Part shown: positions 21,642-49,103 of the stretch, piece after piece | How the letters are laid out: each line of letters opens with the position of its first letter | How positions within the stretch are numbered: position 1 is the first letter of the stretch | The notes under the pieces: model-generated | Seen by the model: the letters and a program-made list of their open reading frames with translations, nothing else | The model's database searches: none | What the model was told of the DNA's origin: nothing | Source: Glandiceps talaboti | Taxonomy: Eukaryota > Hemichordata > Enteropneusta > Spengelidae | Direction: 5' to 3' | Length of the DNA: 64,000 nt | Assembly: GCF_964340395.1 (NCBI RefSeq) | Contig: NC_135552.1 | Location: 23,831,681 to 23,895,680 of the forward strand | Made by a program: the position numbers and the translations under genes

Positions 21642-21693
21642 GTTGAATCATAGACCCTCCACCCACCTCTGGGTGGAGGGTCTATGGTTGAAT
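21642..21693. mobile_element. Short palindromic insertion, CATAGACCC family, perfect copy
   Basis: A 38-bp insert (21649-21686) with two perfectly complementary 17-bp arms (CATAGACCCTCCACCCA and its inverse) around a four-base spacer CCTC. It is flanked by an exact 7-bp direct repeat GTTGAAT (21642-21648 and 21687-21693). This is the type copy of the family. Confidence 0.85.
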
Positions 21694-23194
21694 TTACTAG
21701 TAACATACCGATATCAACAAGAAACCAAGCAAACTGAAGTTATTCATAAGTACACGAATTCAAAACTGATGATATAATCCCGATACAAGTTAAATTTCGA
21801 ACCTAGTTTGTTTATTTGTGTATTTAAATACTTCAACGTTCATGACAATAACTTTCGTATGTTTACAGTGACCCAGCGATACGTTTGATGCATATTTTTT
21901 AAGGGAATTGTTTTCCCAGACGATAATGTTTAGATGTTGTGTTTCATTTGACTTGAAATATTATTTGGAACGTCTGCTGGTATCGATTTTTTTTTCAAGG
22001 ATAGTATTATATTATCGGCAATGAGACAGCAACACCAGATGTAATAAATATTAACACAACCATGTAATAATGTTGTTGTAAATCAAAATACTTGCTAACT
22101 TTTAAACTTGAAGATGTCCACAAAGTACGTGATAGTAGTACAAAATATTTAAATACAAAGTGTTAGTTTCGCAGTTGCCATATTGCCTGCCAATGACATT
22201 TTATTTGTTGGGTGACGTTTGTTGCTGGAGATAATGAACCAACACCTTGTGAAAAGAAGACAGTCTGCAACTTCGATTCTAACTGTGTCCGTGTTATCTA
22301 AACACATTTATGCAAATTATATGTCGATACACGATTTTTTTGGATCCACACCGTTAGTTAGATGGAGATATTTACAATACAATTTCAATCGTGTAATACA
22401 GTGTGGTACCTATATAGTAGCTGAATTACAGTTTTATTTCTTCAAGACCTGTGTAAGTAAGAAAAGAAAAGAAATGTATATTTTGGTACAACGTTGACAC
22501 TTTATGTTAATTTGATACCAACAAGAACTTCATTTTTTTTATGCAAAGCAAACTTGTTTGCATCAAGTAAACAAAATATAGTTGTTCAAATGATGAATGT
22601 GTAGTGTTTCTATTTTTATTGTTTTTAAATATTTGGTGTTGTAATGATGGCTGTTATTTGGTTTTGTTAATTTCGACGAAGAAGACTCTTCTTTTTTCTT
22701 GTGACTACTTGTTTCCCTCCAAGAATTAGTTTAATTGCCTCAATAGTCAGTAGAGGGGATCAGCCCTTTTAGTTCGCCGCATCGTCATGAAAGGTAAGGG
22801 AGCTTAGTGATCGTTGTTTTATTTCTGATGCTGAGAGGGGACAGGCAGTCCATATTTGGCCTGTTAATCTACCCTGCTGGTATCTGTCTATGCACTAGCA
22901 ATCCCGGACTTAATAAGTTCGCCCTCCCATTAGATGACCATTGACAGGGGGGGGGGGGGGCTATTTTCTTGTTTTCTTTCCAATGGTATTTATTTTTTCA
23001 ACTGCAAGTGATAAAATTGACATGAAAATTTGAATTCTTACAGACAAATATAAAATTGTACGTTACATGCCGCTGGTCCCATGTAGGCGTACCAGACCTT
23101 GTCCCGGTCACACTATCGATTTGCCAAATATTTTTATGTAGGGAATTAAGAAAGCGGAACGTAGTGCTAAACCAAACAAAGCGAATTTTTGGTT
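21694..23194. other. Kelch-gene 3' flank and intergenic
   Basis: AT-rich. It contains a candidate poly(A) signal AATAAA at 22043-22048 and a G run at about 22948-22962. No further gene is supported. Confidence 0.5.
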
Positions 23195-23448
23195 CCCTGC
23201 ACCACAGGGGCGTGTAATATTTCATAGATGGTTGTTTTCCAGGTTTACAGACTAAATATAACAACATTTTTATTAATATATATTCCTACATGTAAGGGGA
23301 AGAGACAAGTCCATAATAATTCTTCGTAATATAGAGATTGATACATTTGTAGCAGCAAGATTCGTACGATATTTTCCTAAGAAAACGACATTCTAAGCAA
23401 TAAGAAAACAACAATCTATGAAATATTACACGCCCCTGTGCCCTGCAC
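23195..23448. mobile_element. 238-bp MITE with 8-bp target duplication (hAT-like)
   Basis: Element 23203-23440 has 37-bp inverted repeats matching at 36 positions, starting CACAGGGGCGTGTAATATTT and continuing into TCATAGATG. It is flanked by an exact 8-bp duplication CCCTGCAC (23195-23202 and 23441-23448). The duplication length and CA..GGGGCG-type end fit hAT; a P-superfamily element with an 8-bp duplication is the alternative. No transposase inside. The near-identical arms suggest a fairly recent insertion. Confidence 0.85.
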
Positions 23449-25623
23449 CGGTACCGCGGACTGAAGTTTGCAGTTATAACTAGCGCCCCCACACGATATT
23501 TACGGTACATGATTCTTCCATTTTAACGGTGTTTCGGTAGCTTACTTCTTGTAAAAATGTAACATGCATAGATTTTATGAAGGAATTTGGTTGTTTCAAA
23601 GTTCTTACTATAGTTTGTAAATATGTTGAAAGGTTTTCTAGTCCTAACAATAATGACCCAATGGTGACTGTAACAGCGATTTATTCAGGCATATCTCGTT
23701 CCTAAAAGTTACCACCCTATTTGACAATGGTTCGTTCTAAATAAAAAAGACTGCTGAAGCCAGAGAATAAACTGCGTGATATCGGTACGTATTTTAAACG
23801 AGTTACAGAGCGTGTGAGAGAAGTCAGTCATGTACCTAGTGTTTTTGTTCTGTCCTCGTTGATACAGGTAAGTGTGTTTGATTCTGACGGAAGGGAGAAG
23901 GTCTAGCTCTGGCTCCTTCTATAAATTGTTCAAGCGCCCACATGTCCCAATTCTTGTTTTCGACTCAAATTTTTCATGTTCTGCCCTAGAGGTCCATATT
24001 TTTACTCTGAACTGTGCTGACCTTGCTGCTGTATGTTCTAATGCCGTGCTAGTGCTAGCATTATTACGAATGTACCATGAACATTATGTTTGACCAGTGC
24101 AGTGCTGTGGTTCAGTGTTTGTAGTTTATCTGCAAATATTTAAAACAGAAACCACATAACCAGTAAATGCGGATGACGAATAGATCCCGGGTATAAATGT
24201 ATTTCACTGTTTTCAGTTGGGACTTCAGAAGTTCAGTACATACAAATTAGAATAGTTTGAACTTCAAAGTTCCCGTTCCACTGTCCAAAAAACATGCTGT
24301 ATTTATGTGCTGTGAATATGGTCCAAAGGTCCCGGGGGTCAAAATCTTAGCAATAGATTCTATCATTCATTTGTATAGGTATTAGGTACTCTCGGTCTGT
24401 AAATCTAAAACAAGAAAAGTTACACTAATCTTGAATAGCGCTACAGAACGACAGACTCCCTGAACGTTCATGATACCCGTAAACTTTACTGCCTATTCTT
24501 CCGATTTGTTAAGATATCGTAAAAAGTTGTATTGCTCATGTCAAGGCAAAGAGGTGTTATTGAAAATAACTATGAAGGTGAACGTCAATGAAGAGATGTA
24601 AACTAAATCGTAAACGCTGTGTACATGTTTTGGCTGATGTAAACATGGAAGTTTAAGAGAGCTCAACAATCCTTGCATTGTTCACAAATTTAGATTTAAC
24701 TACCCTGTTATAAAACAAGTAATTAATTACTGGTTAAATACTTTATTTTATTACTTTATAAACTGACAGGGCGGGCTTGAAAAGACATGAATTTATGTGC
24801 ACCTGATCCCAACTATGCAAACAGATAGAATGATAAAGATAACTAAACTAGTATATATCCATACATCCATAATAATGTATCCCTCTATCACAAGAAAAAA
24901 AATGAAACAAGCAACTTAAAATATCAATAAAACAAGTGATGACATATCCTGAAGCTATTATAGTAAGAGATTGAACTGCAGTAGGATAGGTGTGTTTCTA
25001 AAATGAACTAGATTGCCAATGTGAAATGTAAGTGCAAAAATCTATGAAGCCTTTTTCTCCAAATTATGTGTTATTTCTCATCTACTTCATGATACTTTAA
25101 CTCATGGGTTTCAGTCTTTTACTTTGATGTTATCTACAGAAAGGCTGGTTGTTGGTGCAAGTTGACTAATAGCTAATTGTTATATTCAGCGTTCACTGTT
25201 CAGTCACTTTTCCTGTATGTCTATGTCTGTAAAGAGTTGGTATTTGCAGTAACTCACCTATTGTTAGCAGTCTTCTCAACAGATTAGCAACTATAAGTCC
25301 CTATACAAATAATGACTCGAAATACCAACTCCATTGTTCCTAAATGAAGGTAGCCATTTGGCCAGACAAAACACTCATTTACAGGTCCTTGGAAGCAAGG
25401 TAGACAAACTGTATACTCTATTCACACATCACAAGTGTTTACACCAGACCCAGCTGACAGTGGTGACATCAACAAGGGAGTGAAGTAAGCCAGACTGCCA
25501 ATTAACCTCTCCCTATACAGGAAGAGACCAAGCTGTCTTTATCACTCCATTTTATAACACTGTAATTGTAAGAAGTCTACAAATTGAACTGTGCAGTAAT
25601 GGTGGACTGAACCAAACAAGTCT
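23449..25623. other. Intergenic, nothing recognisable
   Basis: No supported gene, repeat array or RNA gene. CpG is slightly raised at 23.45-23.9 kb. Confidence 0.4.
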
Positions 25624-25681
25624 GTGCAATCATGGATGTATTCGTGAATCTTAAATGAATCTAATACATCCATGGTGCAAT
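25624..25681. mobile_element. Short palindromic insertion, CATGGATG family
   Basis: A 44-bp insert (25631-25674) with 12-bp complementary ends CATGGATGTATT / AATACATCCATG, flanked by an exact 7-bp duplication GTGCAAT (25624-25630 and 25675-25681). Confidence 0.85.
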
Positions 25682-26305
25682 CCAAGCTCATCAGATGAAA
25701 TCAATGGCCCATGGCAATGCATGGCCAGTTTAATTATGTGTACTTCCACACTTTATAGTGTAAAACTATTGCCAAAATGTGAATGCATTCTGTCTGTTGA
25801 CTTCGTTCTTGTAAACCAGAACTGTTATTTGTTCCACGACACTGCAAAATAATGAAGCCTGTCTTAGCGGTGCATCTTGGATGGTGTCGTAAAACAGGCA
25901 GTGGTTTACGTTGATGAGGTAGTGATTTAAAATGCAAGGCTTTGGCAGGTCTGGCTTAGAAAGAGATGTGGATCCAAGTTTTACATGTCCATAATTTAAG
26001 TGAAATATTTCACCCAGCAACCATGCACATTACTGTACGCGATATTCCACAAAGGATTTATCATTGTATTACATAGCAATATCCCATTTTCTTTGCTATA
26101 TTCATGATATTGGGGCATACATCCAAATTCTTTCTGTGATACATGTGCAATACTATTAATAGTAAATAACTCATCACATGTCACAGGGACTGAGTGCATG
26201 GGTCTATGATAGCAGTAATCCAACTCCTTTAAGTGCACTTCTGAGCACTTGTGAAGGACTATGAATGCAGGCAGAGTAGCATTTAGTGAAATCTTGGATG
26301 ACTAT

Positions 26306-26347
26306 GTCCAATCATGGATGTTGCATGTATTACATCCATGGTCCAAT
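26306..26347. mobile_element. Short palindromic insertion, CATGGATG family
   Basis: A 28-bp insert (26313-26340) starting CATGGATGT and ending ACATCCATG, flanked by an exact 7-bp duplication GTCCAAT (26306-26312 and 26341-26347). Confidence 0.85.
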
Positions 26348-27040
26348 AGTGAATACCAGCATAGACCCTCGGAGGGACTACCGTACAGCACTGTGGGCTA
26401 TGATTTATTCAACATGGCTACCTAACATGCACATCCTTCAAGTGTGCAGGACCACATGCCAATTGGATGTATATCAGCATATGTGTACTTTGCTGAATTG
26501 CAGGTACTTCATACTTGAAGTACATTGTAATATTCATAGAACTGTATAGGTAGACCCCCTGAAATTTACATAAATTATCAATCATGATAAACCAGAACAA
26601 TTACAAAATCATTTCTATTTCCCATAGGCCTTTCCCTTTGAATTACTGTCAACTGCTAGTAGATGCAATAATTATAGCAAGGAGTACTACCTCATACATG
26701 TATGTTCCAATGTTACATTAAACTTGGTATATTGTCAACTTTAACACTGTCTTTCTGATCATACGGCTTGCCAAAGGGCTATGTTAGTATATGTACATGT
26801 ATAAATAAGTTTGGCAGGCTAAGCAATAGATAACCCTGTAATTTTAGGCAAAGTTTTCCAAAAACCATGAGCATGTATTGAAGAAGATATATTGTACGAC
26901 TCAGTATAAAGGATCCTGGGTTTACATCATTGTGGGAGGGAGATGAAGTACCTATGGGATATTGTGTCAGAGCTATGCAAAGCCCACACACAAAGGATGG
27001 ATGTATTTGTAAGGAATTGATAGTGAGTGGAAGAAAATCT

Positions 27041-27081
27041 ATTGTGCCATAGACCCAACCATGGAGGGTCTATGATTGTAC
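27041..27081. mobile_element. Short palindromic insertion, CATAGACCC family
   Basis: A 27-bp insert (27048-27074), CATAGACCC...GGGTCTATG, flanked by ATTGTGC and ATTGTAC (6 of 7). Confidence 0.75.
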
Positions 27082-27811
27082 TGAATGATTTGAGTCAAGA
27101 TTATCCTACTTCACTAATTCCCAGGTGAGAGGAAGTAGATCAGTTGCTCAGATGAATAAGCAAGACTAAGATGTGGCTATACATTGTAGAATATATATGA
27201 GAAATCATGTGAATATACATTGAACGTGGATATGTGTTAGATCTTATTAACAACTAACGAAATACTTTCAGTTTGATTTTAAATGATGGAATCCAACTGA
27301 TTGTGTTAAAATTTTGCACGACAGTATCTTCGATACAGATGTTTGACATCCCTAAGTCCTATAAGAGTGTTACAATCCTTCATAATTGTTCTACTAATGA
27401 GACTATTGGTTTACTTCTCACAGTATTGATTCCTGTACTCCTTGATTAACATCCACTGTGTTTCCGTGTTAATTGCTATTTCCAAATCCTGTTATTCATG
27501 TACATCTTTTACTTCCATCCTGATGCACTCAAATGAGAGTGTGTAAAGCACATTGTATTAAATTCATGATTCTATTGTGGATTCAAAACAATGTACTGAT
27601 GTATAGGTTTATCCATAGAGTTAGTCCTTCTTCCTACCCCCATGTTTACCCAACAGATGTTATGTAGAACAGTGAGTGTCTTGGTTATGTGGAAGTATTA
27701 CCGAATCTTTAGGACCCAATAATCAGTTTTCAAACATTTTCGACAATATCATAAGGTATGGTAAAAGTTGATAGTAACAATTATGCATACAGATTTTATA
27801 AATCATCCTCA

Positions 27812-27859
27812 GTTGGATCATTTATGTTAGGTCTCCCTTAAATACATCCATGGTTTGAT
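27812..27859. mobile_element. Short palindromic insertion, CATGGATG family, diverged
   Basis: A 34-bp insert (27819-27852) with an intact right end AATACATCCATG and a decayed left end CATTTATGTTAGG. Flanks GTTGGAT and GTTTGAT match at 6 of 7. Confidence 0.6.
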
Positions 27860-28851
27860 CTAAACATGTCATTTGAAGTCACAAGTGTGTTGTACTTGTG
27901 TTGGTTGATTCAGATGTTTCAAACTTTGTTTTGAAGCCTAGATTCATTTTGAGTACTGGTAGTGATTCTCCACACAAGCAAATCAGTAATTTGTATAGTT
28001 TTAATTCATATCTCACATTAATACATAACTGATTAGATGATGTGATTTGATATCATATTCTGAGACAGGAATCCCTAATAATAGAACAATGCCAGGAGAC
28101 AATTTTTTAAATGCTACTAGTATCAAATGTATGCATGCATTGACATGATTATCATACATAGATCAGGTTAATAATTGTTTTATGCCAAGTTTTACAAACC
28201 ATCCCACATAAAAAAAAAGTTGATAAATCCAGCTTGTATCACTTTAACATGGGGATTTGAATCTTTTTCTGTTCAAGGCGATATTAAGTGTGTATACCAA
28301 AGTGGTATGGAGTCATCTCTGAAGAGAGATCTTGTGATTCAATGAAGGATATTAGCACAAGATTGGACAATATTGACAGTGATAGCTGGGTGCATATACC
28401 TTACCATGAGATGGATTGTCTAATGACTGAGATATTTGTCAATGATTGTCTAGAAAGATGTGTTTATCTGTTACAAACAACTCCATTATTGTAATCTGTA
28501 GCTACTTTAGATTTTTATTGTGTTTGTTGTCTGAGTTTTATCTTATCAATTTTTGGCTGGCTTGTGACTACTTGTCTAGTAAACAGCCTATCTTTTCACA
28601 GGACAAAAATACTTGAGTGACAGGAGTAGGCAGCATGTAAACCTAGAAGGGTCAGGCAGAGGTCATTTGCTATGGTAACAGGTCTTTGGATTCACGTTAT
28701 TGCATTGAACTGTACTTGTAACAGAGATTTCATATTTGATAAGGAGCTATTCAAATCATAAATGTAAGCTGTAGTGAGTGACATATGTATAAAATCAGTA
28801 GTTTGAAATATTCAAAAAATTGTTGAACAGTTATACTTATTCTGTCTCTGT

Positions 28852-28916
28852 GTCTATCCATAGACCCTCCACCAACATTTATTTTACAGTAGTGGGTGGA
28901 GGGTCTATGGTCTATC
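28852..28916. mobile_element. Short palindromic insertion, CATAGACCC family
   Basis: A 51-bp insert (28859-28909): CATAGACCCTCCACC at the left, GGTGGAGGGTCTATG at the right, with an unpaired centre of about 20 bases. Exact 7-bp duplication GTCTATC (28852-28858 and 28910-28916). Confidence 0.85.
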
Positions 28917-29776
28917 CTAGAATGAACACTTGTACAGTGGTGTTCAGATTTGCAACTCTGTGCAATCATGGCATGATGGACCATAATCTGCATACTCTCA
29001 GTATGAATTTAAGGTAGGAATACAGCGAGTTTCTAGATAAATGACTTATCTGGAGGCTTTTCAGGTACACACTGTCGATCAACATAACTCAAGGATTTGT
29101 CTCAAGCTGCTATAGTCTTGGTGGCACCAGAGATAGGGAGACTACCACAGTGAAACTACTTACACTGAGCAATTTATCATGTCTCTTGCAGACAAACCAT
29201 GTCTCCACTTGCCTAGAATAAAAAACTATTAACGCTGTACTGGTTTAGGTATAATCAGTTCAAAACTACTTTCTGTCTATGCTGGTTTATTAAACTATGG
29301 ATTTAGAACAGGTTATTGTAGCTCAGCTGTCCTCACTTGAATGGATTCCCTATCAAATTATATGATATTACTTGATCAAGTGCAAATGTTAAGTTCACCT
29401 GACTCTTTAATACACTGTTCGAAGTTATATACATGTATTAACTAGACTGATAATAGTATGGTATACATGTACACCACTGTGTTCTCATAGAATGATAGAT
29501 ATATAGTGTATAGGGTCCTTTATTCTATAATTTCAGCAAAAAATAGAAATACATGTAAATCAACATTACCAAAAATTATGTTTCTAAGTTAAGTAAATAA
29601 TAGATATATTCTCAGAGAATCTTTGAGGACACCAAGACAAAGCTTCTGTATAATGTATATATTAGGTAATGTGAACATGTTCAGTAAATGATCTACTTTG
29701 AGCTGAATTAACTCCACGTAGGGACTTTGAAACTCTTAAATATACTATACAGTGTTACAAGTGGGATAAGGACTAG

Positions 29777-29823
29777 TGTAAAATAAATACCCTGGACTGA
29801 CAGCCTCGGGTCTATGTGTAAAG
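29777..29823. mobile_element. Short palindromic insertion, CATAGACCC family, decayed
   Basis: The insert 29784-29816 keeps the right end GGGTCTATG, with a weak left end TAAATACCC. Flanks TGTAAAA and TGTAAAG match at 6 of 7. Confidence 0.45.
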
Positions 29824-30525
29824 CAATTATACCAGTTAATTCTGAATGAGCCATCATTAGCAATCTAACTTGTAACTATTTCACGAAGTTCTTTCATCTA
29901 AAACTCAATGACATTCACAGCATACGTAGACTTGATTTGACATACATAGTCCTGTACATTTGCCTTCCACCTTCATAAATTGCTCATTGGTTTTGCAAGA
30001 TGACACTTTGTGGAACTTGATGCAGTTTTTGAGTCTCTGAGAAGTGTTACAAGAAAGGGGATACTTTCATGGTATGTTATCCATATTGTGGTTGAACATT
30101 TGAGCATTATACAGAGTTGCCATAGTGTGACTTTTCCTTTGTCCTTTCCAAGATGTCATGATTTTCACTGCCTGATCTGGACGACCTTTACTAATGAAAG
30201 GGTCACACAGTATCCACACACCCCTAAGTAAAGTACTGCCTGCCAACAACCTATGTTATAAAGACATGAAATTGTAGAAGGAGAGGATAATTCTGACCAC
30301 CAACATTGCTAGTGTGTTTTCAATTTCTAATCTGATTAATACACATGAGTGCATCAAGCCAAGAAAATGAACTTAAAGAAAATTCTAAAGTTTTAATGTA
30401 TTCAGGTACAGATCATGGCGCCAACACCTTTCCCCCAGGAATAACACAAAATATTTGTTCTGATGAAGTTCTTTCATTTTGCTGAAAAGAGTGTATATAG
30501 ACCAATGACAAGTCAAGTTTTGTGT

Positions 30526-30554
30526 GTTTACCCATAGACCCTCTATGGTTTACC
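30526..30554. mobile_element. Minimal 15-bp palindromic insertion, CATAGACCC family
   Basis: Only CATAGACCCTCTATG (30533-30547) lies between exact 7-bp duplications GTTTACC (30526-30532 and 30548-30554). It consists of little more than the two element tips, so it cannot be a mobile unit by itself. Confidence 0.8.
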
Positions 30555-32553
30555 CAAGTTTTACAGTATACACCCATGGTGTACCTGTCTGATTTAAAGA
30601 TTAGCTGCACAGCTCCATCCTGCAAGTCCTGTTATAATTGTCTTGAGTAGGGCATGATGGGACAATTCGATCTAAAAGGAATGTACAAGGTAAAATGCCA
30701 TCAGTTGTTTATAGATTCAAAGAGATCTATTCCCAGTTTTAATTAGTACATTTACTTGATATTATTATGATTAAGATAATGTAGAATTTACAATTTATTA
30801 ATTTGCCGAGTTCCTGCTATGGATTCCCACCAAAACAGTTGGATTTCTTTGAACCTCAGACCACTAAAAAGATAGGGGTCTGAGTTTGAATGCTATATTT
30901 CGACCCTGGGTCTTTACATTCATGTTATCACATCAGTAGATCCATGAGGATTACACACTATCTTCGTTCCTTTGTCCTGGGTCATGTTTTTACTAAAGCT
31001 CTACATAACAACTGTTTGTCACACCAAGACTTTAATCCTAATCTGAAGTAAGCCTTATTTTGTACATTATCTTAATTAGATTGGTATTAAATTTGGTAAA
31101 TGAGTGTATTTTCAGCTTACTGAAATGTGATAGACTGATAGATAAAACAAGAGCTTGAAAATGATATGTACTGTTGATAAATTAGTTATCATGAATAATT
31201 TATGCAATATTTGATCCAACATGTTGGAATCAGATATATGATAATTTATGTTTTGTTGCAGATAGAACTTTTCAGAAATTAACAGGCTTCAATCTTAATA
31301 ATGGCATAATCTGCACAAAATGAAGTTGATAATTAGGTGTTTAAATTAACTATGTTGTCTTGTGGAGTGTCATTGTTTGGTGTATGTGTAAACTAAAACT
31401 AGACTGTAAGATACTTCATGTTGCTATGTTGACCGATTTCTGAGGGTACCCGTTACACTGTACCTTACAGACTAACTTTAGCTATGGTTAGGACAAAATT
31501 GTGTTAATCAGAAAAGACAACTTTGAAGATGAACTTCAGTAGTCATTGGTTTGTGAAAATTAATAAGTAAACCAGATTAAATTGTAATCCTGTTTTATGT
31601 TGAACATATTTCAACAATCAATTGATGATTAGTGAAGCTGTTAAAATTATCAGAAGCTATGTTTGTAAGCTGGTGATATCTAGACATCAAATACCAATGG
31701 TCCATACTTGTTGGAAGAAGTTTGTTTTCACAAACTAGGCTTGTCTAGACATCAGTGACACCACCTTAACACCTATATCTTCTATATTATTAATCAAAAC
31801 AGAGTAATTTTAGTGACAAGAACAACTGTAAAGTATAATCAAAATAACTCAAAATGGACTTGAACTCAGATAAGGTGATAAATATAGATAATGTGAATGA
31901 GAATAGTAAAAACATGGTTGTAAGAGCGTAGACAGTGGAGAGATCACTAATATTGTATAACAGTAACTGTCAGCCCCTATGGACCTATGCTACATTGTTT
32001 TGCTAAGATTTGCAAACCCCGGTAACCTGAGGGAACCAGATAAAAATTTTGCATTATTTCTGTACCTTGTACCATGATAATTTTGATGTTGAAAGCTGTC
32101 TCCCTCTCCATCATAAAAATGTTGAAGTCGGGTAGATTTTACTTATAAGATTTTACTTACCATCTTTAAGGAAAATATTCTACTTTGAAGTTGATGACCC
32201 AACTACAACTCAGTTTCTAATTATACTTGTTTATTTTCACTTTGATTTATCAAATTGACTTCCTAATTTGCAATAAAGCTGTGACATCTCTTTTACACTA
32301 GTTACCCACCGTACACATATATTATTTAGGTTTCAGTGGTCCTGTACTATATTTTAGGGTGTATGTTGTGAAGGATTACATGTAGTATATTGTCAATAAT
32401 CTTTCTAGAGTGTAATCATGACATGTATTTATAGGAAATGTTGTCATCGCTTGCAGTAAGTGGGCAATTATACCAGCTGGAGGTTACTAACTCAGTGAGA
32501 AATTGTTGTGAAAAGTATCATATGTCCTATGTTCTGTTATAGATTATGTATGT
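30555..32553. other. Intergenic, nothing recognisable
   Basis: AT-rich unique sequence; no gene, array or inverted repeat identified. Confidence 0.4.
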
Positions 32554-33269
32554 GGATATGCTACATCATGTTGTATTCTTGCTGAACCAGGGATAACTCA
32601 CAGTTAATCCTGCTTGCCGACGGTACACGGGTCTAGATTACTGACATGACCCTCAACACCGTCCTGAGAAAAAACAATGTACTCAGCCTATTTCGAGGCT
32701 TCCACACCATTTATCGAAGAATTACATACCCAACGATTAAATATTAGCAATCGATCAAAGATGTACTCATTTTACATCTCTTTGATGATAGTAGTCGCTC
32801 GTACGATAAAAAAAACTTGTACAATAAAGGAACTTTTCTAGTTCCGGTTGTAATTTCAAACAGCCCACCTTACAAATGCCACCATATTTGATCAGTATGT
32901 CCACTACATCATCGTACGTAAGGCGGATTCCTGAAATTATGGTTGAACTCGTGATTTTGGTATTTTTGGTCCCCCGAACTGGGACTTTTGTAGCCATGGC
33001 GAGGTAAAATTATTAAATAGTATATTTATTGCTAATATTTAACCACATGGTGCGTTAATTCTTTAGTTACCAGCATTTCTGGTAAGCCCAAGTTTCACGG
33101 CTGGCTCTTCACAGGACAGAGAAGGAAGGGATGACTTAGTCCGTATGCAGGCAGCACTAACACAGTATATATATGGCTAAGTTTTAATTTTGACATATCC
33201 TACAAGTTTAGTGCAGGATCATATTCTACAATGCATATGCTACATTCTTGCTGAACCAGGTGAAACTCA
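32554..33269. repeat. Segment bounded by two diverged ~40-bp direct repeats
   Basis: GATATGCTACATCATGTTG, then TATTCTTGCTGAACCAGG (32555-32592), recurs as CATATGCTACATTCTTGCTG, then AACCAGG (33234-33260). Both copies are followed by a similar AACTCA. The roughly 640 bp between them is visibly richer in CpG than its neighbourhood and contains the minus-strand frame at 32767-32997. Confidence 0.5.
32767..32997 (-). CDS. Unidentified short frame, possible first exon (uncertain)
   Basis: A 76-codon frame starts with ATGGCTACAAAAG (MATKVPVRGTKNTK) in a good initiation context and includes ISGIRLTYDDVVDILIKYGG, which looks protein-like. GT-containing donors (ATTT/GTAAGG) occur after about 42 codons, so it could be a first coding exon. 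I recognise no family and found no downstream exon on the minus strand. It sits in a CpG-rich island. Confidence 0.25.
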   Translation of the reverse strand: MATKVPVRGTKNTKITSSTIISGIRLTYDDVVDILIKYGGICKVGCLKLQPELEKFLYCTSFFYRTSDYYHQRDVK

Positions 33270-33636
33270 AAGTGTGTACTACAACTTGGTACAAGATTTC
33301 ATATATTTTAATTATGAACAATGCTAACATGTACTTGTCAAATCCAGTGTAAATATAAAATATTCACTAGATCAAAGGGGTCAAAGTGGCCTGAAGAAAG
33401 GCAGGGGTATAAAATTGTCAGATGTGTTTGGAAGGTGTGTTTGTACACTACCATGCTTTGATCCATAAGATCACTCCAGTTTGTCTCGTTTCCAGCTGTG
33501 ATAATGACCTCCTCAGCATAATCCTCTAAGTGTTATAAACTTTGTGAAATCTACTGCAGAGTACATGTATACAGCTGTAATATGCAATTTTTTATCCTCC
33601 ATCTTGCTAGTGAGAGTCTATTATAATAGTCTAGCT

Positions 33637-37616: not shown

Positions 37617-37745
37617 TATTCAACTGTTCGTTAAACGTCAATGTGTCTAGATTACAAGGGTTGTGAGTAGATGCAACCAAGCAGTGTGGATTCATTCATT
37701 CGTGTACACATTAACAGTAAATTAATGATGTTACGTTGTAGCTTA

Positions 37746-37795
37746 GTAAAAGCATGGATGTATTAGGGAAAACCCTAATACATCCATGGTAGAAC
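37746..37795. mobile_element. Short palindromic insertion, CATGGATG family, best palindrome
   Basis: A 36-bp insert (37753-37788) with perfect 16-bp arms CATGGATGTATTAGGG and inverse around AAAA. Flanks GTAAAAG and GTAGAAC match at 5 of 7, a decayed duplication. Confidence 0.7.
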
Positions 37796-40700
37796 TGATC
37801 ACTTTTTAACAAGCTAAATCTCAGTTGTAGTCTCAAATCGTTGTGTCACAACTATCAAGATAGTAGAACAATGTCAAGTTTAAAATAAAAGATACTGAAA
37901 CATGTAATTCAGGTTATGTTTGAACTTCTAATAATACTAAGTGTACATAAATATGATCTCTTTTTCAGTTAATGAAAGGTATGGATGCCAAGATTCAATG
38001 ACCCATCACCTTCTTTCTTGCCTGCCTATTGTTTTTTTTTCAACAACAGTAAACATATCAGATGCACTGTCTTTTCATTGAACTACCTATTACCTAAAAA
38101 GCCCCTAGGTTAATTTGCTTAATTAGAGTTTAAAAACAAACAAGTGATGTATAGTAAAACAATGGTGTATAAAACTATTGTTCTTTCTACTACTACTACT
38201 ACTAGTAGTACTACCGGTACTAGGCAAGTTCATAGTTGGTGAAACTTAAGACATTTCCATGTCTCCTTTAATTGTGTACTGTTATGCCAGGTGTTTTATA
38301 AAAGCAGTTTTAGTTTCATTGACCTTTGTAACTGTGCACATTTAACAAGATAGTGTTACAGTCCATATTCAGTACAGTACTACATGTGCCCAGGAAATCA
38401 CTCAGTGTTTTTTGCTAAGGTGTGGGAACCCCAGTTACAGACAGTGGTAAAACTGGCATAGTTCCCATACATTGACTTTTGGTGGGGAACTCGATAAAAT
38501 GACTGGGAAACTCAGGTAAGTTTGACCTACTTTAATAACTGCCCTTTAAAAAACACTGACAATAAAATGTATCAATGACTAGAATGTAAAGTTATTCAGC
38601 TGATCAAACTCTCAATGTTGAAAGAGCAACTTCCTTGGTTTATGGAGATAGAATTGTACAACAACATTTGGTGTCTTTTTTGGAATATCCCATCGACATA
38701 TTGTCTTCAGTTTTACTGTCTTTATTGATAATACTGATTGCCTGGACTAATTGATGGTCTATTAACACCAGGGTAGAACTGTATTGTATTGAAACGTGTA
38801 TATAGAACATGTATTAACATTTTTTTTAAACTTTTAATATAGAAAGTCTTATTCCCTTTCACCTGTCTATTGCGATTGGCTGAATCTGTGACTGTACTAC
38901 ATCCATAGCCTGTCTACCAACTGAATCTGTGAGTGTGACTCCATTACACTCGTTCACACTTTCTGATAAGGGTAATCAAGTGTAGCTGAATCACAAATTC
39001 AGTCAAAGGCCAGGCTTGAATCGTATTTCCTAAGTGTTTATGAAAAAAGGGGGAGATGCATGTGATAATATAAAGGTTTGCAAGTAGATTGTGTATCATT
39101 TTCATTTTACCAACGCCCTTCAACAGGAAACATGAGTGTGGTACTACTAGGATACCGTTTGTAACTTTTAGTGGAGTTTGACTCAAGTGGCTATGCAGTA
39201 TGTCAGTGGTAATTTTGTAGGAGGGAGAGGAGAGAACAAGGGTAGCAATGGTCAATTAGTTAGACATGTGATATCAAAGGCCTTGTATAAAATCTGCCTT
39301 GGGCTAGGATTAAGTTTAACATGGTGTTTTGCAGTACCAGGCAGACTGGTGCTGGCACTTTCAGTCTTCGAAACTCCATGCAAGTATTGTCCAGTGGTTG
39401 TTTTTTTTGCACCCGTTGAATGGATTGCTCTTCTCACTTTTCACAAGGGGTACTTAGGATTGATCTCCTACAAGAAGTAAAACATAATGCTTCATCAGAT
39501 TTGCCTGAGAGACAACATGGATCTCTCTTTCTGTCTTCTCCCACTAAGAAGGTTACTATTCTTCAGAGTGACAAAGCTTCACAGAACTCTTTTGAAACTC
39601 TTTGAAACTACAACTTCTTTTCCCACTGTGATATCAATACAGTTGTTCAGCTTAATGCATGATTGGATCCAACTTGGCTAATTCTGATTGGGGAGAAAAA
39701 TCCCCGCAGTGTGGTGTCTGGTGGTAGCTAAGGCAGAGGTGCCTTCAAGCATTACACGTTGTAATCATTCCACTATAAATACAGTATAGATTACTCAATG
39801 CCAAATTGTTTCTGCCTCACCTACAACTGGCATGTGGTCTTTTTAATAAGATGATCCCCTGTAGATATCTGTCTTCAAAGAAATCCGGGTTTTATCTGTT
39901 TAAGGTGTTTTTTCCTCTTCAGAATCACCTATAAGTAATGCGGAGATAATTAAAAACTCAGAGGGAACACTAAAGGTGGAGAATATAAGCAGCCACATTG
40001 AAAGGTAGTGATGGTATGCCATAATTATCTCTAATTGAGATTCATTCACACCTAGTTGTTACTGTAACCCTGAGATTGTCATGAATCCTAATATGGTATT
40101 TAGGTTGCTACCTTAGTTACCTCAGATTAAAGGGTGGGATGGGATGGGGGCAGGTCGGTAAAAACAGTGTTTTCATTTGATTGCTCCCACAGTTACCTCA
40201 AATGAAGAGCATTTGTAGAATAAAGAGGGGAGGTGTAAGGGGTGTAAGGGTGCAAAGACAGTGTTTTCATTGGGTTGTTTTATAGTTATCTCAGATGGAG
40301 AATGGGAGGGGGGGGGGGTGGTAGTGGGGTAGGTAACACAATGTTTTCAATTCATTCAAGATGATAAGTATATGTGAGTAAAATTAAATATATCCGAAGT
40401 CTTTGCATAGAAATTCCCACCAATCTCACGGTATAGTGTGTAAAAAAACCCACACAGTTTTATCGGAAAATTATAGATACAGCCTATACAGATACCAGTG
40501 CTACATCCATATGAAAAATAATACATTGGATTTTGAGTTTGCAGGTTATGCTTTCCTCCCGTCTGTTACCATGGTACTGACCACCTCGCCAAAACACAGA
40601 GAGATCAATACAATAGTAGAAGTTGACATATCTAGAGATATTGATTTTTGAAGGATGAGTCATTGGGTCATACATGTAATAATGTGTGTAATATCTATGA

Positions 40701-43476
40701 TTGACTTCACAGAGTTAGTTCTGCTTGGCAGGAATTAAGATTTGAAGTTGAAATTTGATAGTGACACAGAATAGAAATTGAGAATGGTTTGGAAGTTTTA
40801 GCATACATCTTGTGTTACATGTCTATGGTTGTTCCTTTGATTTGTATTCATTGCGATATTCATTTTATGTACACCAACCAATCAAATATTTGAGCAAATT
40901 CTATACATATATTGACATAAAAAACCTATCTTGGAACTTAAGACAAATTTGAGCCGTTTGAAGAATTTTGATGGTGAATTGCATTTCTAAAATGACACGT
41001 AAACATGGGTAAGCCTTTTTGACTAAGACATGAAAGTTGTGATATGATTGCAGGATGGATGTTGTTCTGGTCATAGTTGCATGTTTTGAAAAAATTACAT
41101 AATGTAAACATGATGATGATCATTTCTGTAGGAGTGTGAATCCATATGTAGCAGTTACTAATTAGAGAGGTTCAGTGTGTCTTCTAAGCCAATTTTATGT
41201 GCAAATGACACTTGTGACATGCTAAAATTGTAGTGTTTGCTATCTCTAACTGTGTGCTAACTCAAGAAAACCCTTTATCATTTTGACCCACAACAGAAAA
41301 TGTTGTCTTTCAGTAGAGAGAATACTGGAGAGTTTAACTGAGTTTAGTATAAAACAAGATATTTTACATAATTCACCACAGAAAAAAGATAAAAGAATCT
41401 GTTTACATACCAGTATAAACTATAATGTTTCAACTTTTAAGTAACTTGTCAATAGATTAAAAAATAGATATGATGATACCAGTATTTTTGGTGATTTGTT
41501 TTATATATAAATATAAGAGAAAGGAAGGAAAATGGAGGAATCTGAACACATTACCTATAATATTTACATAAATGTAATTCAATATTTATGATTCGTTGCC
41601 ATATAATTACACGCTCTGTGCTCAAAACAAGTCAGCAACCATACAAGAGGTTTTTTTCAAATAAAGGAAAGTATTAAAGATTGGATTTTGTACTTCCCGA
41701 AAAATACAGCAATTTTAGTAATGCTCAATTTAGTTCACACACTTGAGACTGCCCCTAACTTAAGAAAAAAGGTCATAACCTATGTATAGATTTCACATTT
41801 GTGCATTCGCTGAATGCATGTAATCTAGATCACACAAAAGATGAAAGAAGAACGGCTCCCTGCCAATTATTTTAACATCAGTTCTTTCTCTAATCATATC
41901 GATTGTAACACTGCCTTAAATCACATTTTATGTTTAAGCTGTGTAATCCTGAATGCCTGCGTAAAATACATTATAGTGTTCAAATTAAGTTACAGCAGGG
42001 CCATGTTGATATTTCTATTTTTCCATTTTCACTATTTGAAATAGCAATTACGTGTTACTTATTAACTTTCAACCCCTAATTTGGTTTTACTTGTGATTTA
42101 AAAATTGTGCAGTAGATTAGAAAACAAACTTAATGGATTAAGTGCCCGTGTAATATTGATTTTCATGCGTTAAATGAAATACCGAAATACTTACAGTGTG
42201 AATCGGTATGTTCTGAGTGAATTTTATGGAATGAAATTAAGGAGAGTAAATTTACATGTCAAATATATTGTCCAGGACTGTTAACTTTAAAGTTAAAAAA
42301 GTGATCTGACATGACCTTTTAAAGCCTAGCACCCAATATTTAGGATGCAATTACATAGAGTTACAGAAACCAAGTCATTAAAGGGTCAGTAAATCTGCTA
42401 TACTACACAAATAATTTTTCAAAATGTGTACCATAATACTACAAAGGAATCTCTAGACAAGATAACCAGGAGTGTCATATTTTATAGACGCTTCCCATGT
42501 TCATCATTCATCAATTTATCAAGACATTTCATGATGTAATTTTTCCCAAAGACAACTGTGAATGAATCATGATAATTGACAGAAAGATATTGTTTCTGAA
42601 AATGATTACCTTCACTGAGAGATTGATATGTTTTATTAGACTCTTTAGAATTTCCACACGAGGCATTAAGAATTGTCTACAGTGTACTTCCCAGATACGC
42701 AGGATATGTAGAAAGTGATGGATGGCACCCAAAATTGTTTGAAATGTGATATGGGGCATATTTATCCAAACTCATTTGTATGTCTGAAGAAGTCCTGGAA
42801 ATATCAGGTGGTAATTTATCAAAGATAATGATGTACCAGTAAGATATGTGACAGGATTCTACCAGTAGTAAACCACTTATCTGGTTGTAAATAATCATCT
42901 TTGCCATGTACATTGAGAATTTCAATCTCGTCTCCACCTTACATACTGTAAATTGGCTGTTTTGTTAATCACCATGAATGGAATTCTTGAGTGCTTAAAG
43001 ATTGAGTTCTCACATTAGAGGGAAAAAATGAAAGTAGTTTTTCTTTCTTTGGATGCCGCGTTAATTTAGACACACATGTGAATCACTGCCCAAGATTGGG
43101 TTGTTTTGAAGTGTTGTTAGTAGGCAGGTTGCAGAGGTTACTTGAAAACATACTTGGTAATGTCTGTATTGTCTGGAAGTCCTAGGCATAGTTCATCTTT
43201 TTATCATCAGCTTGTAGCGATACATAAGAATAATTATCCATGTCTATATTAAAATTGCATACAGTTTTTGCAGCCAAATTGCACTTTTCTATGATCTCAA
43301 AATTGCACACATTAGAGCAACCTTCCAGACCTGGTGAGACATGATTATATTTTTTAGGGAAGTCCTAAATTATAGCTATCTGCCTATCATATACTAAAGC
43401 ATCACCTTTATACTGTGTATTACAGATTTAATAACTACGTATGAATCATGATGTGGTAGTGGAACTCTTACTGTAG
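37796..43476. other. Intergenic, nothing recognisable
   Basis: About 5.7 kb of AT-rich sequence. Frames near 38.9-39.7 kb lack domains and splice context. A G run is at about 40309-40318. No gene is supported. Confidence 0.4.
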
Positions 43477-43641
43477 TTAGTCTGGATGCCACCGTGTTCT
43501 CTAACTAAATGAGTGGAGGTGTAAATCGTAACAATACCATATAGGGACTAGACTAGTGGCAGTGTAAATCGCAACGATACCATATAGGAACTAGACTAGT
43601 GGAGGTGTCAATCATAACGATACCGTAAAGGAACTAGACTA
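43477..43641 (+). repeat. TAGTCTGGAT interspersed repeat, copy 2, with internal triplication
   Basis: TAGTCTGGATGCCACC begins the element. A 43-bp module (GTGGAGGTGTAAATCG...GGGACTAGACTA) is then repeated three times (43513, 43556, 43599) and ends at GAACTAGACTA. The opening TAGTCTGG and the inverse of the closing ...ctAGACTA form short inverted tips. Confidence 0.7.
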
Positions 43642-44579
43642 ACCGCGGTAGTTGTCAGTATTTAACTTACAACATTATATCTGTGACTACTGGTACTAGA
43701 AAGATTATAAGAATAAGGTGGAAATGTCATTTTATTGTCTCAATTTTATTCTGGATAAAACCTCTGACCTGAGACTTTTTTTCTCCAGACCCATTTGAAA
43801 GTTGTATTGTGCATATACCTTAGTTAGGTTAATTTCGCAACTATTGTAAACATTGTCAAATTTTGTAAAGTTGCCATCTTTTATGATGTGTGTAATATCT
43901 GAATTTGATATCACTCAGACTATATGACTATTATTACCTGTCATTGGTTACTGTTGTTACTAAATAATCAATTGTACACGTGGACATGTACATGTTTGCC
44001 GCTAGTGAAATTAATATAAATGTGTATGTAATCCATACATGACACCTTTGTACATTTCTGTTTGTCTACATGTACATGAATAGTTATGTCATTTTCAAAT
44101 CCAACTAACTAAAATTTAATCAAACTTCGATTGAATTGTCAGACACATCTGTTTTACAATATTTACAATCCAGGAATTGTCAATCATTGAAAATTTATTG
44201 ATTATAAATACTGGCTGTTAATAGAATGGCTAGGCATGAATATATGTTCATAGTGTGAAAGGGAACATTGCTACCAGCCCTATTGGAACAGTTGGGATCT
44301 GGAAATCCAAAACATGCATGAGTTTAGTAGCCTAGTGGCTATTTGTAGCTTTGAAGGTCTCTGTCGTGAGAAGAGATTCGATGTCATAGATACTAGTAGT
44401 CTCTAGACTGCATACATGTAGATTTTGATATTTTACAAATATGAGTAGGAGATATTGTTCATTGTTCATGTACATGTTTTTAGTTCTGTTGAAATATTCA
44501 AAGTTGCAACACATAATTACTATTTTGTTGTTTCAGTATTCTGGTATGATTATATATCTCAAATCATAGCAGTGACGCA

Positions 44580-44697
44580 GCAGCTAACCTGTTTATGGCG
44601 CTAAATGACCGACTATGATAACGCTTGTGTTATTCAGACAAGTATAATTGGAGTCAGTCATTCAGTGCCATAAACAACTGAGGCTAAGCAGCTAACA
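44580..44697. mobile_element. Foldback element, about 100 bp
   Basis: Arms GTTTATGGCGCTAAATGACC, then GACT (44591-44614) and the inverse of GTTTATGGCACTGAATGACT, then GACT (44652-44675) pair at about 21 of 24 positions, with a second nested stem inside (ATAAC/GTTAT). An AGCAGCTAAC direct repeat flanks it. No coding capacity; MITE-like. Confidence 0.6.
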
Positions 44698-46333
44698 TTT
44701 TTTTAGAAATTGACACAATTTATGAAACAGAAGCCCAGAATTTATTTCATGCTTTGGGACTTATTTTCTTTACATCTTGAAATGATAATAAATTTCCCAA
44801 AGACAGCGTAGCATTTTAAACCAGGAACAATAGGAGGGGACTACAAAATGTATACATAAAATATATGTAAGTCATGTTTTTATTCATTACTGAAAAAGGC
44901 CCCTGGCTAGATTTATGTTCAATATTTAGCAGACTCTAAGCCCAGGAATATGTTACTTACAGTCGTGTATAGATGAATTACATTACTGGAGAGGTGAATC
45001 TAAGAGAATGTTGCAATAAATTATGCATGATAAAATGTAATAGTTACTTTGGTAATCAAATATCACGTAGAATCTCATAAATAAGATAAAAACTGTGTTT
45101 CTCTGTGAAATAGTCAGAAATTACATTACAGAAAAAGTATACCCTGAGAGATAGCATAATAACTGCATCACATCTAAAAGATTTCATCCTCTGACTGACC
45201 TCGTAATTATGATAAATCATGTATCCATAAGCAATATTATTAATGCATCTAAAATGGTGAAAAATTATTTCTTGAGAAAATTTCATCCTCTCGCAGACTT
45301 CGTCACTATGTTTCTCAATTCTTAGACACACCATTGAACAATGACAGAAGTAGCAGATCACTCATTAGAGAGATGCACCAAAAAGGAAATCGTCTGTGAT
45401 GCATCATTAGATAGAGAAGATGGTGTGTACAGATGTCAGGAAATTTCAGGTCTATAGATACTTAGTAGATGGCAAATAAGACATGAAGCCAGTGGTTATA
45501 TGTCTTCACTTTGTAATAAGTTGACTCATCCTTTGTGTTGGATAAATTGTGTCAAATGGCTTAGTCACATCCCTTTCACAAAGTTGTTTTGTAAACCACC
45601 ATTAATTGAAGTATTTATGACAAAATCCATCCAATTAAAGGACAAGATAGATGACTTTTGTGCTATTCAATACAGTATCTATGGGATTTACTGTGAAATT
45701 TAATATTATGAGTTGGTGATATATTAGGTTATGAAATGAACGATTGTCCAGAAATGGATTCTTATTTCCATGATGGATTCAACTCTGTATATGACTACTT
45801 TGAAATTTTCAAATGATAAAATTTTTTGTATGTGCTTGGTATGTCTCATTTATCTGAACTCACATGTCTTTAAAATTGTGAATATTGGATTTCTGTGATT
45901 ATATGTAATATATATAATATATATATAACCCCAGAAATATTCTATTAATTCTTATAATCTCACCATTTCTTCTCATGTGACATTCATATTTCATGACAAT
46001 CACGATTGAATCACTACTGATGTATTGAAAATAAACATTGAAGAATGTTATATTCACATTGATGTGTTTCCCTGGACAACTGTAGATTAAGACTTTTGAT
46101 GATGATAATAATGCTTGATGTCAAATGTATAAACAGATATGTAATGTAACTTGTACCAGCTCTGTGGAGCTGAGATCTAGCTAAAAGCTTAGAAGTTCTG
46201 CATAAATATGTTATGGTGACCTCAAGACTCAAACTCTTAGACCTCCGCTATGATTCCATAGGCCACAATACATGCAAGTTGTTATACGTAAGCGCATGCA
46301 CAGTATTAGAAATCTGGAAGATGCAGCCACGGC

Positions 46334-46404
46334 TAAGTCTAGTCCCTTTAGATACGGTATCATTACGATTTACACCTCACCTCACACCATGACAGCATCC
46401 AGAC
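46334..46404 (-). repeat. TAGTCTGGAT interspersed repeat, copy 3 (inverted)
   Basis: Read on the minus strand: GTCTGGATGCTG..., GAGGTGTAAATCGTAATGAT, ACCGTAT..., GGGACTAGACTTAG. This is the single-module version of the family. Confidence 0.65.
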
Positions 46405-46567
46405 AACCATGGCCATTGTAAAAAACAGCAGAATTAGGTGGCAGAAGGTTATTGTTATTATTTAAAAAATAGTTGTGAATTTTAGAGGTTTTTTTTAGTT
46501 CAAGAATATTGCAAATCAAATTGATGTGCTACCCACACATAGTGCTGCTAATGTAACCACATCGGAA

Positions 46568-46771
46568 GTGCAAGTCCAAGTAACAACATCACCATATATG
46601 TAGCATATTATCCAGAGAAGGTGCAAGTCTGAGTATCGACATCACCGCAGGAGTGTATTATTCAGAGCTAGGTGCAAGTCCAAGTATCGATGTCACCGTA
46701 CTAGTGTATTATCCAAAGAAGGTGCAAGTCCAAGTATCAACATCACTGTACTAATGTATTATCCAGAGCTA
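46568..46771. repeat. Tandem repeat, four copies of 50-53 bp
   Basis: Copies start at GTGCAAGTCCAAGTATC-like boxes at 46568, 46621, 46672 and 46722, each running to TATTATCCAGAG. Confidence 0.95.
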
Positions 46772-49056
46772 AGTAAAAGCACCATGATGATGAATATTTA
46801 TTTCATATATTAATGTATATACTAGGAATTTGTTATCTAAAAAGGTCCCCATCATCATTTGTCTTATCTTAAACTATGATACAAGAGTACAGACTCTTTT
46901 ATCTCCAGCATAATCATCTTGATTTACCAAATCAACCTCTGTTCTAATCTGACATCTCAAATCTGAGTCAGTTCAGTAAGGCTTCAACCAACCATCTTCA
47001 ATTTTCATTAACTCTAACTCCAAGTAATAGAAACAGTGTAGTAGCAACTGTGTCTCTCATCGTCATTGATTAGGATAGTAATCCATGTACCGAATGAAAG
47101 TAATACGTTTCTTTGCTGTGAAAGAATATCAATTGATGGATATGTATCTAATACACAGCTAAAACTGACAGTACATCCAGGTTTCAAGTCATCAAACCTA
47201 GTTATATCATTTCGTGTATGTAACAGCTGCCGCCAGCAATGACATGATAGCCGTGTTTATCACCTCAATGAAAAGGAAAGCATTTACTTCAATATTTTTT
47301 GTGTTATTATATTTCAAAAGCTGGCGACTTCCAACATGAGTCACTTTATAGTAAAACTGTACAGTACACAGTGTGTATGAATAACTAGATATATACCTGT
47401 CTGTTACATCTTTGATATGGCAAACAGCTGCATCATAGTTATATATAATGTAGTGATTTCATCTTGTCTTCAAAAAATAGAAGAAAAATTACACATGCAC
47501 TGTCGCAACCTAAAAATAATGTCCTAATTGTTGGAGTGTTAGATAACATTTTCAGATCTGTCCTGATTTCACTTTTCCCTTGTATGCATATATCACATTC
47601 ACCAAACATTTTATTTTGCATAACTGTAAATTTGACCTTAGGCCCTAAACATTACAACTGAAAGGAATTCCATTATCTATTACATGTGTTACATATCCCT
47701 TTCTCAGATATCAGTATTCATATCAAACCCTTATTCAGTCTTCTACAATACTGTAGTGCAGTCTCTTTTTTGTGAACAGGTTTTGCACTTATAAATGATT
47801 GTTGATAACAGATTTTTCCACTGATGGATGGTTGTTGAAAACTGGGTTTGAAGCGATGGATCATTGTTGAAAACTGTTAACTTCCTTTGTGACTTAAATT
47901 TCAAAATATTGATCAGCAAACTTTAAATTTGATTTATCATCACCTCAAGGGATAGTTGTAGATAATACTTTTGATATCAGATGTCCGTTCCAGTTATCTG
48001 CCACAAAGACAAGGAATTTGTGTGTTAAGTACTAGGCGAAATAGCCACCAGAGTCACAGTGCAAGGAAACGTGATCCCAAGTGGTGGACAGGGGTACACA
48101 AATGACCTTATAAGACTCTGATTGTATGGAGGCTCAGTTTGAAGAAGGATATCAGTATCTCCTCAAATCTCTAAGTATTCAATGATCTTTTTTTTTTTAC
48201 AAGTCTGAGTGATCCGTAGCAAATGCATGGATTCTTTCATCCTTTTCACAATCCTGCAAAATACTATTTTTGTCTGTAAATACGCTTATGCAAGTAAAAA
48301 CCATTGTGTAAACTCTTGCACAAGAATGTGAAGTTTTCCATCAAAGGACAGAACCAGGTTTGCAGACATGAGGACTGCTAATAAAGAATGAAACCCAGCA
48401 ATCAGAGCTTGTGCTCAATAGAAACCATACATTTTGAATTCTGTAAATTGACTAGGATCGATGTCTCTTCTTTGTCTATTCATCCAGCATGGACATTTCT
48501 TCTCAAAATTTTCATAAATAAAGTCAGCATGCCATCACTGACACAGCATAAGTATCGATCCAGCCATATTTGCATGGATAGAAGCTGATTACACACAATT
48601 TAATAGAAAAAGATCTGACAATTATCATGTATAAAAAGAAATTCAGGTGAATGATGGCTCAGACATGATAATTGAGGTTACAGATATTGGAAGTCTATTG
48701 AATTAAAAGTACAGTGATTCAAAAGAACTATTAAAGTGCATATGTACTGTTAGTGTCTGTTTTGAACAGATCTAAATTAAAGTAGAGATGGTCTTGTCAG
48801 TCTGATTTTGTGTCACTGCATGCCCCTCTGGCCATCATTTATGAAGGATCAATTCCCATGATTCAGTCTGTTTTTCCTTTACCCAGTGCTGTAACTAGCA
48901 CTGTTGTCACTTGCACATTTACATCTATTATTACGCTAGAAAACAGATAATAGACAGTATACACTATTTCACTAAGCTTTCAGGAGAGCAATTTCTGTAA
49001 AAGAATGACAACTATATATAGCAGCTGCATATCTCAATTATAGGCCTTTTTGATAT
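46772..49056. other. Intergenic, nothing recognisable
   Basis: AT-rich sequence with no supported gene or repeat array. Confidence 0.4.
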
Positions 49057-49103
49057 GTTAACTCATAGTCATAGACCCTCCACCCATGGGTCTATGGTTA
49101 ACT
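49057..49103. mobile_element. Short palindromic insertion, CATAGACCC family
   Basis: The insert 49064-49096 (CATAGT + CATAGACCCTCCACCCATGG... to GGGTCTATG) lies between exact 7-bp duplications GTTAACT (49057-49063 and 49097-49103). The left tip CATAG is duplicated. Confidence 0.85.

Follow-up and report, generated by a model that had tools for sequence, protein, structure and literature searches.

Short palindromic inserts between 7-bp duplications in the hemichordate Glandiceps talaboti are very probably excision footprints of a P-type DNA transposon

The P transposase of Drosophila is described as cutting one strand of the DNA at the boundary of the element and the other strand 17 nucleotides (nt) inside it (PMC7776569). 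The corresponding excision products in flies, among them the repair junctions of P{w-a}, are reported to consist of the target duplication, a tail, a short filler, a second tail and the duplication again, with polymerase theta credited with a large part in both the joining and the templated filler (PMC2895639). Galileo, a member of the P superfamily in Drosophila, is reported to generate a 7-base-pair (bp) duplication at a palindromic GT...AC target, GTANTAC/GTATTAC (PMC4168063), and is characterised by unusually long terminal repeats and a transposase carrying a THAP domain (PMC3688188). The zebrafish element Pdre2/THAP9 has a P-type transposase, ends starting with CATA (Pdre2 CATACCTGTCAAC), 13-bp repeats and 8-bp duplications, according to the description in PMC10983969. 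The present analysis concerns a window of 64,000 nucleotides of Glandiceps talaboti (contig C5, NC_135552.1, positions C5:23831681-23895680; 35% GC; assembly of 590 Mb in 47 contigs), in which small palindromes lie between 7-bp direct repeats; each such palindrome is, with a probability that we put at about 0.94, a donor site that was repaired after a P-type DNA transposon had been cut out of it.

The inserts resemble the Drosophila P excision products in their flanking duplications, in retained tails capped at the length of the overhang and in filler that is often copied from the end, and differ from them in a duplication of 7 instead of 8 bp, in an apparent limit of 18 instead of 17 nt and in having arisen naturally, in their hundreds, and not in the laboratory. 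The 7-bp palindromic duplication is shared with Galileo, although the target here reads GTTNAAC, the terminal repeats measure 35-37 bp and no THAP domain was found, and the CATA start of the ends is shared with Pdre2, which differs in its repeats and duplications. Miniature inverted-repeat transposable elements (MITEs) are likewise short, with inverted ends, target duplications and a larger partner family; unlike MITEs, the inserts described here have mostly unique middles, sometimes possess only one end and would be the product of leaving and not of arriving. The footprint of a hAT element consists of an 8-bp duplication with little or no terminal repeat left behind, which does not fit a 7-bp duplication in which as much as about 18 nt is kept from each end.

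Four sites in the window, proposed in a sequence-only reading of this DNA, have the coordinates and flanks given there, with the two 7-mers agreeing at all seven positions in every case; none of the footprints is assigned to a strand. Footprint 1 (21642-21693) carries GTTGAAT at 21642-21648 and 21687-21693 around a 38-bp insert (21649-21686) composed of 18 nt of the left end, 3 nt of filler and 17 nt of the right end. In footprint 2 (28852-28916), GTCTATC at 28852-28858 and 28910-28916 encloses 51 bp (28859-28909) consisting of the left end CATAGACCCTCCACCAAC (CCAAC type), about 15 nt of filler and 18 nt of the right end (CCCAC type). Footprint 3 (30526-30554; GTTTACC at 30526-30532 and 30548-30554) is trimmed at both ends and retains an insert of 15 bp, CATAGACCCTCTATG (30533-30547). 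The 33-bp insert of footprint 4 (49057-49103; insert 49064-49096; GTTAACT at 49057-49063 and 49097-49103) begins with CATAGT, a copy of the end, followed by 17 nt of one end, a single base and 9 nt of the other. Footprints 1, 2 and 4 also appear in a genome-wide pattern listing, as C5:23853329, C5:23860539 and C5:23880750, respectively. A probable fifth footprint (27041-27081) has a 27-bp insert (27048-27074) between ATTGTGC (27041-27047) and ATTGTAC (27075-27081), which differ at one position. When the window was scanned for CATAG...CTATG inserts of 12-75 bp whose 7-bp flanks agree at 6 or more positions, exactly these five sites (four at 7/7, the fifth at 6/7) and no others were returned, and the scan of 100 first-order Markov sequences of equal length gave 0.01 sites per 64 kb at 6/7 or better and none at 7/7, so that the dismissal of chance in the sequence-only reading is borne out. 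Its rule that the inserts start with CATAGACCC and end with GGGTCTATG proved less than universal, since the insert at 30533 ends with CTCTATG and that at 49064 starts with CATAGTCATAGACCC.

Exact searches of the whole genome yielded 685 matches to the type A end CATAGACCCTCCACCC and 332 to the type B end CATAGACCCTACACCA, with none for the reversed control sequences. The type A sample was drawn from the first 93 of 100 listed places, in contig order; 15 of these are copies of one footprint in a multiplied repeat and 2 are further identical copies in another repeat, and 78 sites are distinct. The 7-mer upstream of the end is exactly repeated within 160 bp in 53 of the 78 (one case, inside L014, is trivial), as against 86 recurrences among 3510 other upstream 7-mers taken as a control. 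A flank match of at least 6/7 at a distance of 12-70 bp was observed in 64 of the 78 sites. Nineteen of 20 type B regions show an exact 7-bp duplication, a proportion to be read with the fact that 16 of the 20 were picked for two closely spaced ends. All type A sites were recovered through one intact 16-nt end and, therefore, heavily trimmed scars such as the one at 30533 in the window are under-counted. A whole-genome search with a gap pattern produced 227 matches (control 0); the 100 listed correspond to 90 loci, since 10 of the rows show a locus a second time in the other orientation.

Merging of orientations and repeat copies, and addition of the window sites with an intact 16-nt end, gave a set of 67 distinct footprints with exact duplications (50 type A, 17 type B), among which 59 different duplications occur. 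Once symmetrised, the flanks of this set define a target motif that is palindromic, TnnGTTNAACnnA, and that is strongest at -3 (T) and at G, T and T within the duplication. The preference for R-T at the start of the duplication and a pyrimidine at its end, noticed earlier from the window, is reproduced here, with G in 53% and A in 25% at position 1 and T in 69% at position 2.

A first feature that distinguishes these inserts from mobile units is the sharp limit at which the retained ends stop. When each of the 78 distinct type A sites was compared with the full terminal repeat, no duplication being required, the longest match was 16 nt in 12 sites, 17 nt in 36, 18 nt in 17, 19 nt in 5, 20 nt in 2, 21 nt in 1 and 24 nt or more in 5; thus, 73 of 78 stop by nt 21, and the remaining five continue into the inner repeat of resident elements. 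In the 90 listed gap-pattern loci, the match passes nt 16 in 76, nt 17 in 32 of those 76 and nt 18 in 9 of those 32, the last value being close to the 25% expected by chance. In 13 of the 17 distinct type B footprints, the better side retains exactly 18 nt, and an exact 36-bp palindrome (18 + 18) is found at six sites with different duplications, a class favoured by the picking of close pairs. The retained end is thus capped at 17-18 nt, the transposase overhang in Drosophila being 17. The inner part of the terminal repeat, CCMACAGGATAYGCAACTGCGG, has 43 exact genome-wide matches against 1,017 for the outer 16-mers; excision footprints are far more numerous than resident ends.

The junctions themselves are highly varied, with 70 distinct inserts among the 90 listed loci, and most of them appear to be independent repair events. 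One 18-bp insert (L057) is without a second end, and another site (L082) has 18 nt left from one end and no more than 2 nt from the other; one-ended inserts such as L057 could not move as units because the second end is absent. The filler duplicates the end itself in L008, L014 and the window site at 49064. In three asymmetric copies (L137, L143 and L145), as judged by eye, one end is reduced to 14-19 nt and the opposite end is longer, as expected if gap repair from one side was aborted and followed by joining to the opposite tail.

A sequence of three steps would account for these structures. A transposon with 35-37-bp terminal repeats would insert at the palindromic target and generate the 7-bp duplication; a P-type transposase would later cut one strand at the boundary and the second strand about 18 nt into the element, which would leave each flank with an 18-nt single-stranded tail; and end joining would close the gap, with 0-18 nt kept from each tail and with filler, partly copied from the end, as a frequent addition. 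The insertion step and the anatomy of the scars can be demonstrated from these data, and it is the 17-18-nt limit, together with the anatomy of Drosophila P excision, that suggests a staggered cut followed by end joining. The stagger would be 18 nt, with frequent loss of the terminal base: type A taken alone is compatible with 17 nt plus chance matches, and type B favours 18.

Long elements that have these ends at their boundaries were identified in the genome. The element L011 is 781 bp long, with the duplication GTTCATG and the terminal repeat CATAGACCCTCCACCCACAGGATACGCAACTGCGG, its two ends differing by one mismatch. The two ends of a 9,179-bp element on contig C24 (C24:18349274-18358452; L043/L127) show no difference in their first 37 bp, and its duplication, GTTACAT, is exact. 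Four copies measuring about 1.6 kb, examined at their ends, are flanked by exact duplications in three cases (CTTGAAG, GTTGAAC and GGCACAC) and by a 6/7 match in the fourth (ATTGGGC/GTTGGGC). The terminal repeats of the family are 35-37 bp long and follow the pattern CATAGACCCT[C/A]CACC[C/A]ACAGGATACGCAACTGCGG....

The minus strand of the C24 element contains a 724-amino-acid open frame with a TNP-like_RNaseH_N domain (PF21787, E-value 2.2e-25), a downstream frame with TNP-like_GBD (PF21788, 3.7e-8), the GTP-binding insertion domain, and a further frame with TNP-like_RNaseH_C (PF21789, 7e-8), all in Pfam. In a sequence search of the PDB, the Drosophila P transposase (6p5a) was the sole match up to an E-value of 10 (E 0.001). 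The translation shows a D(2)H motif (DVPHL) together with aligned acidic residues, and these, judging from the alignment with 6p5a and the descriptions in PMC8230255 and PMC7776569, would form the catalytic triad. The element is accordingly annotated, from its predicted proteins, as encoding a P-type transposase; the P-type RNase H core, the GTP-binding insertion, a duplication of 7-8 bp at a palindromic target and ends starting with CA, which characterise the P superfamily, are all present. The THAP domain (PF05485), which binds DNA and typically forms the N terminus in P, Galileo and THAP9, has 74 matches in the genome, none of them within the C24 element or the other transposase loci, in an exon-wise search that could miss a split domain, and three diverged transposase copies share the N terminus MPYK(L/W)G, without THAP. 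A genome search for Tnp_P_element (PF12017) gave no match, as was the case in the control genomes. The parent is filed as a P-type variant and not as a canonical P element.

A second gene of the C24 element converges on the transposase from the other end. It has an acidic N terminus, a frame with a weak C2H2 finger (E 0.0043, below the Pfam cut-off) and then a 346-amino-acid frame with 'YACGYIPMALTKQL' that has no Pfam match. A diverged, second family (L046/L047), whose transposase is 36% identical to the query transposase, has a similar-looking second frame in L046, also convergent, as compared by eye; this copy has no meaningful PDB match, and no clean terminal repeats were recognised in the L046/L047 stretch examined. 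A 6.7-kb copy on contig C2 (C2:11451194-11457886; L009/L010) was considered as an autonomous element and rejected, as it combines a partial transposase with pieces of a Core-2/I-branching enzyme gene, and the C24 copy was used as the reference because the C2 copy has only part of the transposase. The C2 copy has an imperfect duplication, GTTTGGG/GTTTGGA, and its transposase fragment adjoins the Branch gene pieces (Pfam Branch, 1.3e-16), which are perhaps a captured host gene. At L146 (C1:25519200-25519410), short units that open with a variant terminal repeat (TATAGACCCTCCACCCACAAGATAGG...) stand in tandem, and a satellite may be arising here from a transposon end.

Evidence for insertion comes from a footprint, GTTGAAT|CATAGACCCTCCACCCATG|GTTGAAT, that sits within a dispersed repeat, of which 15 further copies were compared. 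The insert is absent from four (L113, L114, L122 and L123), where the 7-mer (GTTGAGT, GTTGTAT or GTTGAAT) occurs once at the corresponding position; ten copies have the insert or a variant of it, and L124 is too diverged to judge. Since the empty sites hold one 7-mer and not two, insertion with duplication is shown at this repeat, and the alternative envisaged in the sequence-only reading, that empty sites might already contain both 7-mers, was not encountered in these four. A footprint trapped in another repeat (L001, L023, L055 and others) has at least 40 copies, and the 40 copies scored are all identical over 401 bp, which implies a very recent spread of the repeat holding it. A second multiplied footprint repeat has 23 copies at 97% identity or more; in both cases the multiplication followed the formation of the scar. 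Raw counts therefore overstate the number of independent events.

Could the palindromes of 15-51 bp be ultra-short MITEs, inserted as such by a transposase acting in trans? Their inverted ends, exact 7-bp duplications and recurrent forms (the 36-bp type B palindrome at six sites and a 26-bp type A form ending in AGGGTCTATG at 7 of the 90 listed loci) are what such elements would show. However, the copies are not homogeneous, some are without one of the ends, and those ends stop at nt 17-18 of a 35-37-bp repeat; recurrent forms would moreover be expected if two 18-nt tails of fixed sequence were joined after limited trimming. This explanation is regarded as very unlikely, and the sequence-only reading is to be amended accordingly: the sites are genuine traces of transposition with 7-bp target-site duplications, as it held, but the thing inserted was no element of 15-51 bp. 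Equally unlikely is the derivation of the inserts by internal deletion, through aborted gap repair or replication slippage in resident elements and without rejoining of cut ends. L137, L143, L145 and C6:2792761 (32 nt on one side) do resemble the outcome of aborted gap repair; general deletions, however, would end anywhere and not at a limit of 17-18 nt, and the short end holds only 14-19 nt even in the asymmetric copies. Palindromes arisen by chance, or a dispersed satellite whose flanks match by coincidence, would find some room in the inflation of the raw counts by the two multiplied footprints, but the Markov null, the empty reversed controls and the 59 distinct duplications among 67 footprints make this vanishingly improbable.

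Several observations weigh against excision and repair of a P-type transposon, or against the details. The stagger is read from the scars, and trimming blurs the boundary between 17 and 18 nt, a chance one-base match in type A being indistinguishable from an 18th retained base. In fourteen of the 78 distinct type A sites, the flanks do not reach 6/7 at any spacing of 12-70 bp; these comprise element ends (L010, L011, L054 and L074), mutated members of the two multiplied repeats (L024 and L111), one site nested in L014, and seven sites that are single-ended or have poorer flanks and are unexplained (L007, L013, L019, L026, L063, L070 and L093). At one of the 90 listed loci, the above C6:2792761, one side keeps 32 nt. 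The copies with an empty site are relatives that have diverged (68-83% identity) and not orthologous alleles, and this evidence comes from outside the window; within it, the flanks of footprint 3 are single-copy in the genome.

A clustering of sites by local hopping was also considered. For 86 of the 90 listed loci (the four on C10 excluded), 4 neighbour pairs lie within 32 kb against 1.09 expected (p 0.024), and with the three sites of the window reduced to one, 2 pairs remain against 1.03 (p 0.27). For the 62 sites on C1 and C2 without the multiplied repeats, 1, 6 and 7 pairs lie within 20, 50 and 100 kb, where 1.06, 2.59 and 5.09 are expected (p 0.67, 0.046 and 0.24, respectively). Clustering is not supported. 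Three type A scars fall inside 27.4 kb of the window (21649-49096), the genome total being a few hundred.

The remaining candidates in the window are weaker. Besides the probable footprint at 27048, which is found by the scan as proposed, the sequence-only reading had listed two further copies with 6/7 flanks, both of which are doubtful. The first, a possible old footprint at 29777-29823 (listed there at 29784; no strand assigned), has a single recognisable end, GGGTCTATG at 29808-29816, and reaches 6/7 only when read from that end in a one-ended scan. The second, at 16281-16316 (no strand assigned; CATAGACAAATTCTTGTCTGTG), with an insert from 16288 (CATAGACAA...GTCTGTG) between TATAGAC and TATAGAG (6/7 by eye), is too degenerate to call and is here indistinguishable from chance. 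Lone end motifs occur on the plus strand at 26200-26208 (GGGTCTATG) and 26360-26369 (CATAGACCCT), and the window scans found no duplication at either. Among the open frames of the window, a 136-amino-acid frame on the minus strand (14378-14788) is, by eye, what we take to be histone H3, and a 597-amino-acid frame on the plus strand (19663-21456), presumably, and again by eye, a BTB-kelch protein, ends about 190 bp before footprint 1. Short YTSLQW and STVVHL repeat units make up two overlapping frames on the plus strand at 6410-6915, where a tandem repeat probably lacks stops in at least two frames.

Excision footprints of P-type elements in flies and the 7-bp palindromic duplication of Galileo (PMC4168063) are known already. 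No description of a natural archive of P-type excision scars at such a scale was found in the literature searched, in which subscription journals were thinly covered; as far as these searches go, the scale of the archive, the apparent 18-nt stagger and a P-type element with a convergent second gene and no THAP domain found are new. A wider proposal is advanced tentatively, at rather less than even odds, namely that a two-gene, THAP-less P-type lineage, in which the separate convergent zinc-finger protein would give the DNA recognition and the stagger would be 18 nt, has left scars far outnumbering its survivors, as an archive of hundreds of independent germline end-joining events.

Excision scars are usually studied in laboratory flies (for example in PMC2895639). 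Here, the same broken end would have been repaired repeatedly, at many sites and over evolutionary time, and because both its starting structure and the target duplication are known, no experiment is needed to count joining, trimming and templated filler. If the archive is what it appears to be, the repair spectrum of a non-model animal would be readable directly from near-identical 18-nt overhangs. Short palindromes with duplications, which might be classed as ultra-small MITEs, can mark where an element left and not where one arrived, and counts of resident copies can greatly understate the activity of a cut-and-paste family. The putative 18-nt cut, like the apparent absence of a THAP domain, would add to present knowledge of P-type transposases.

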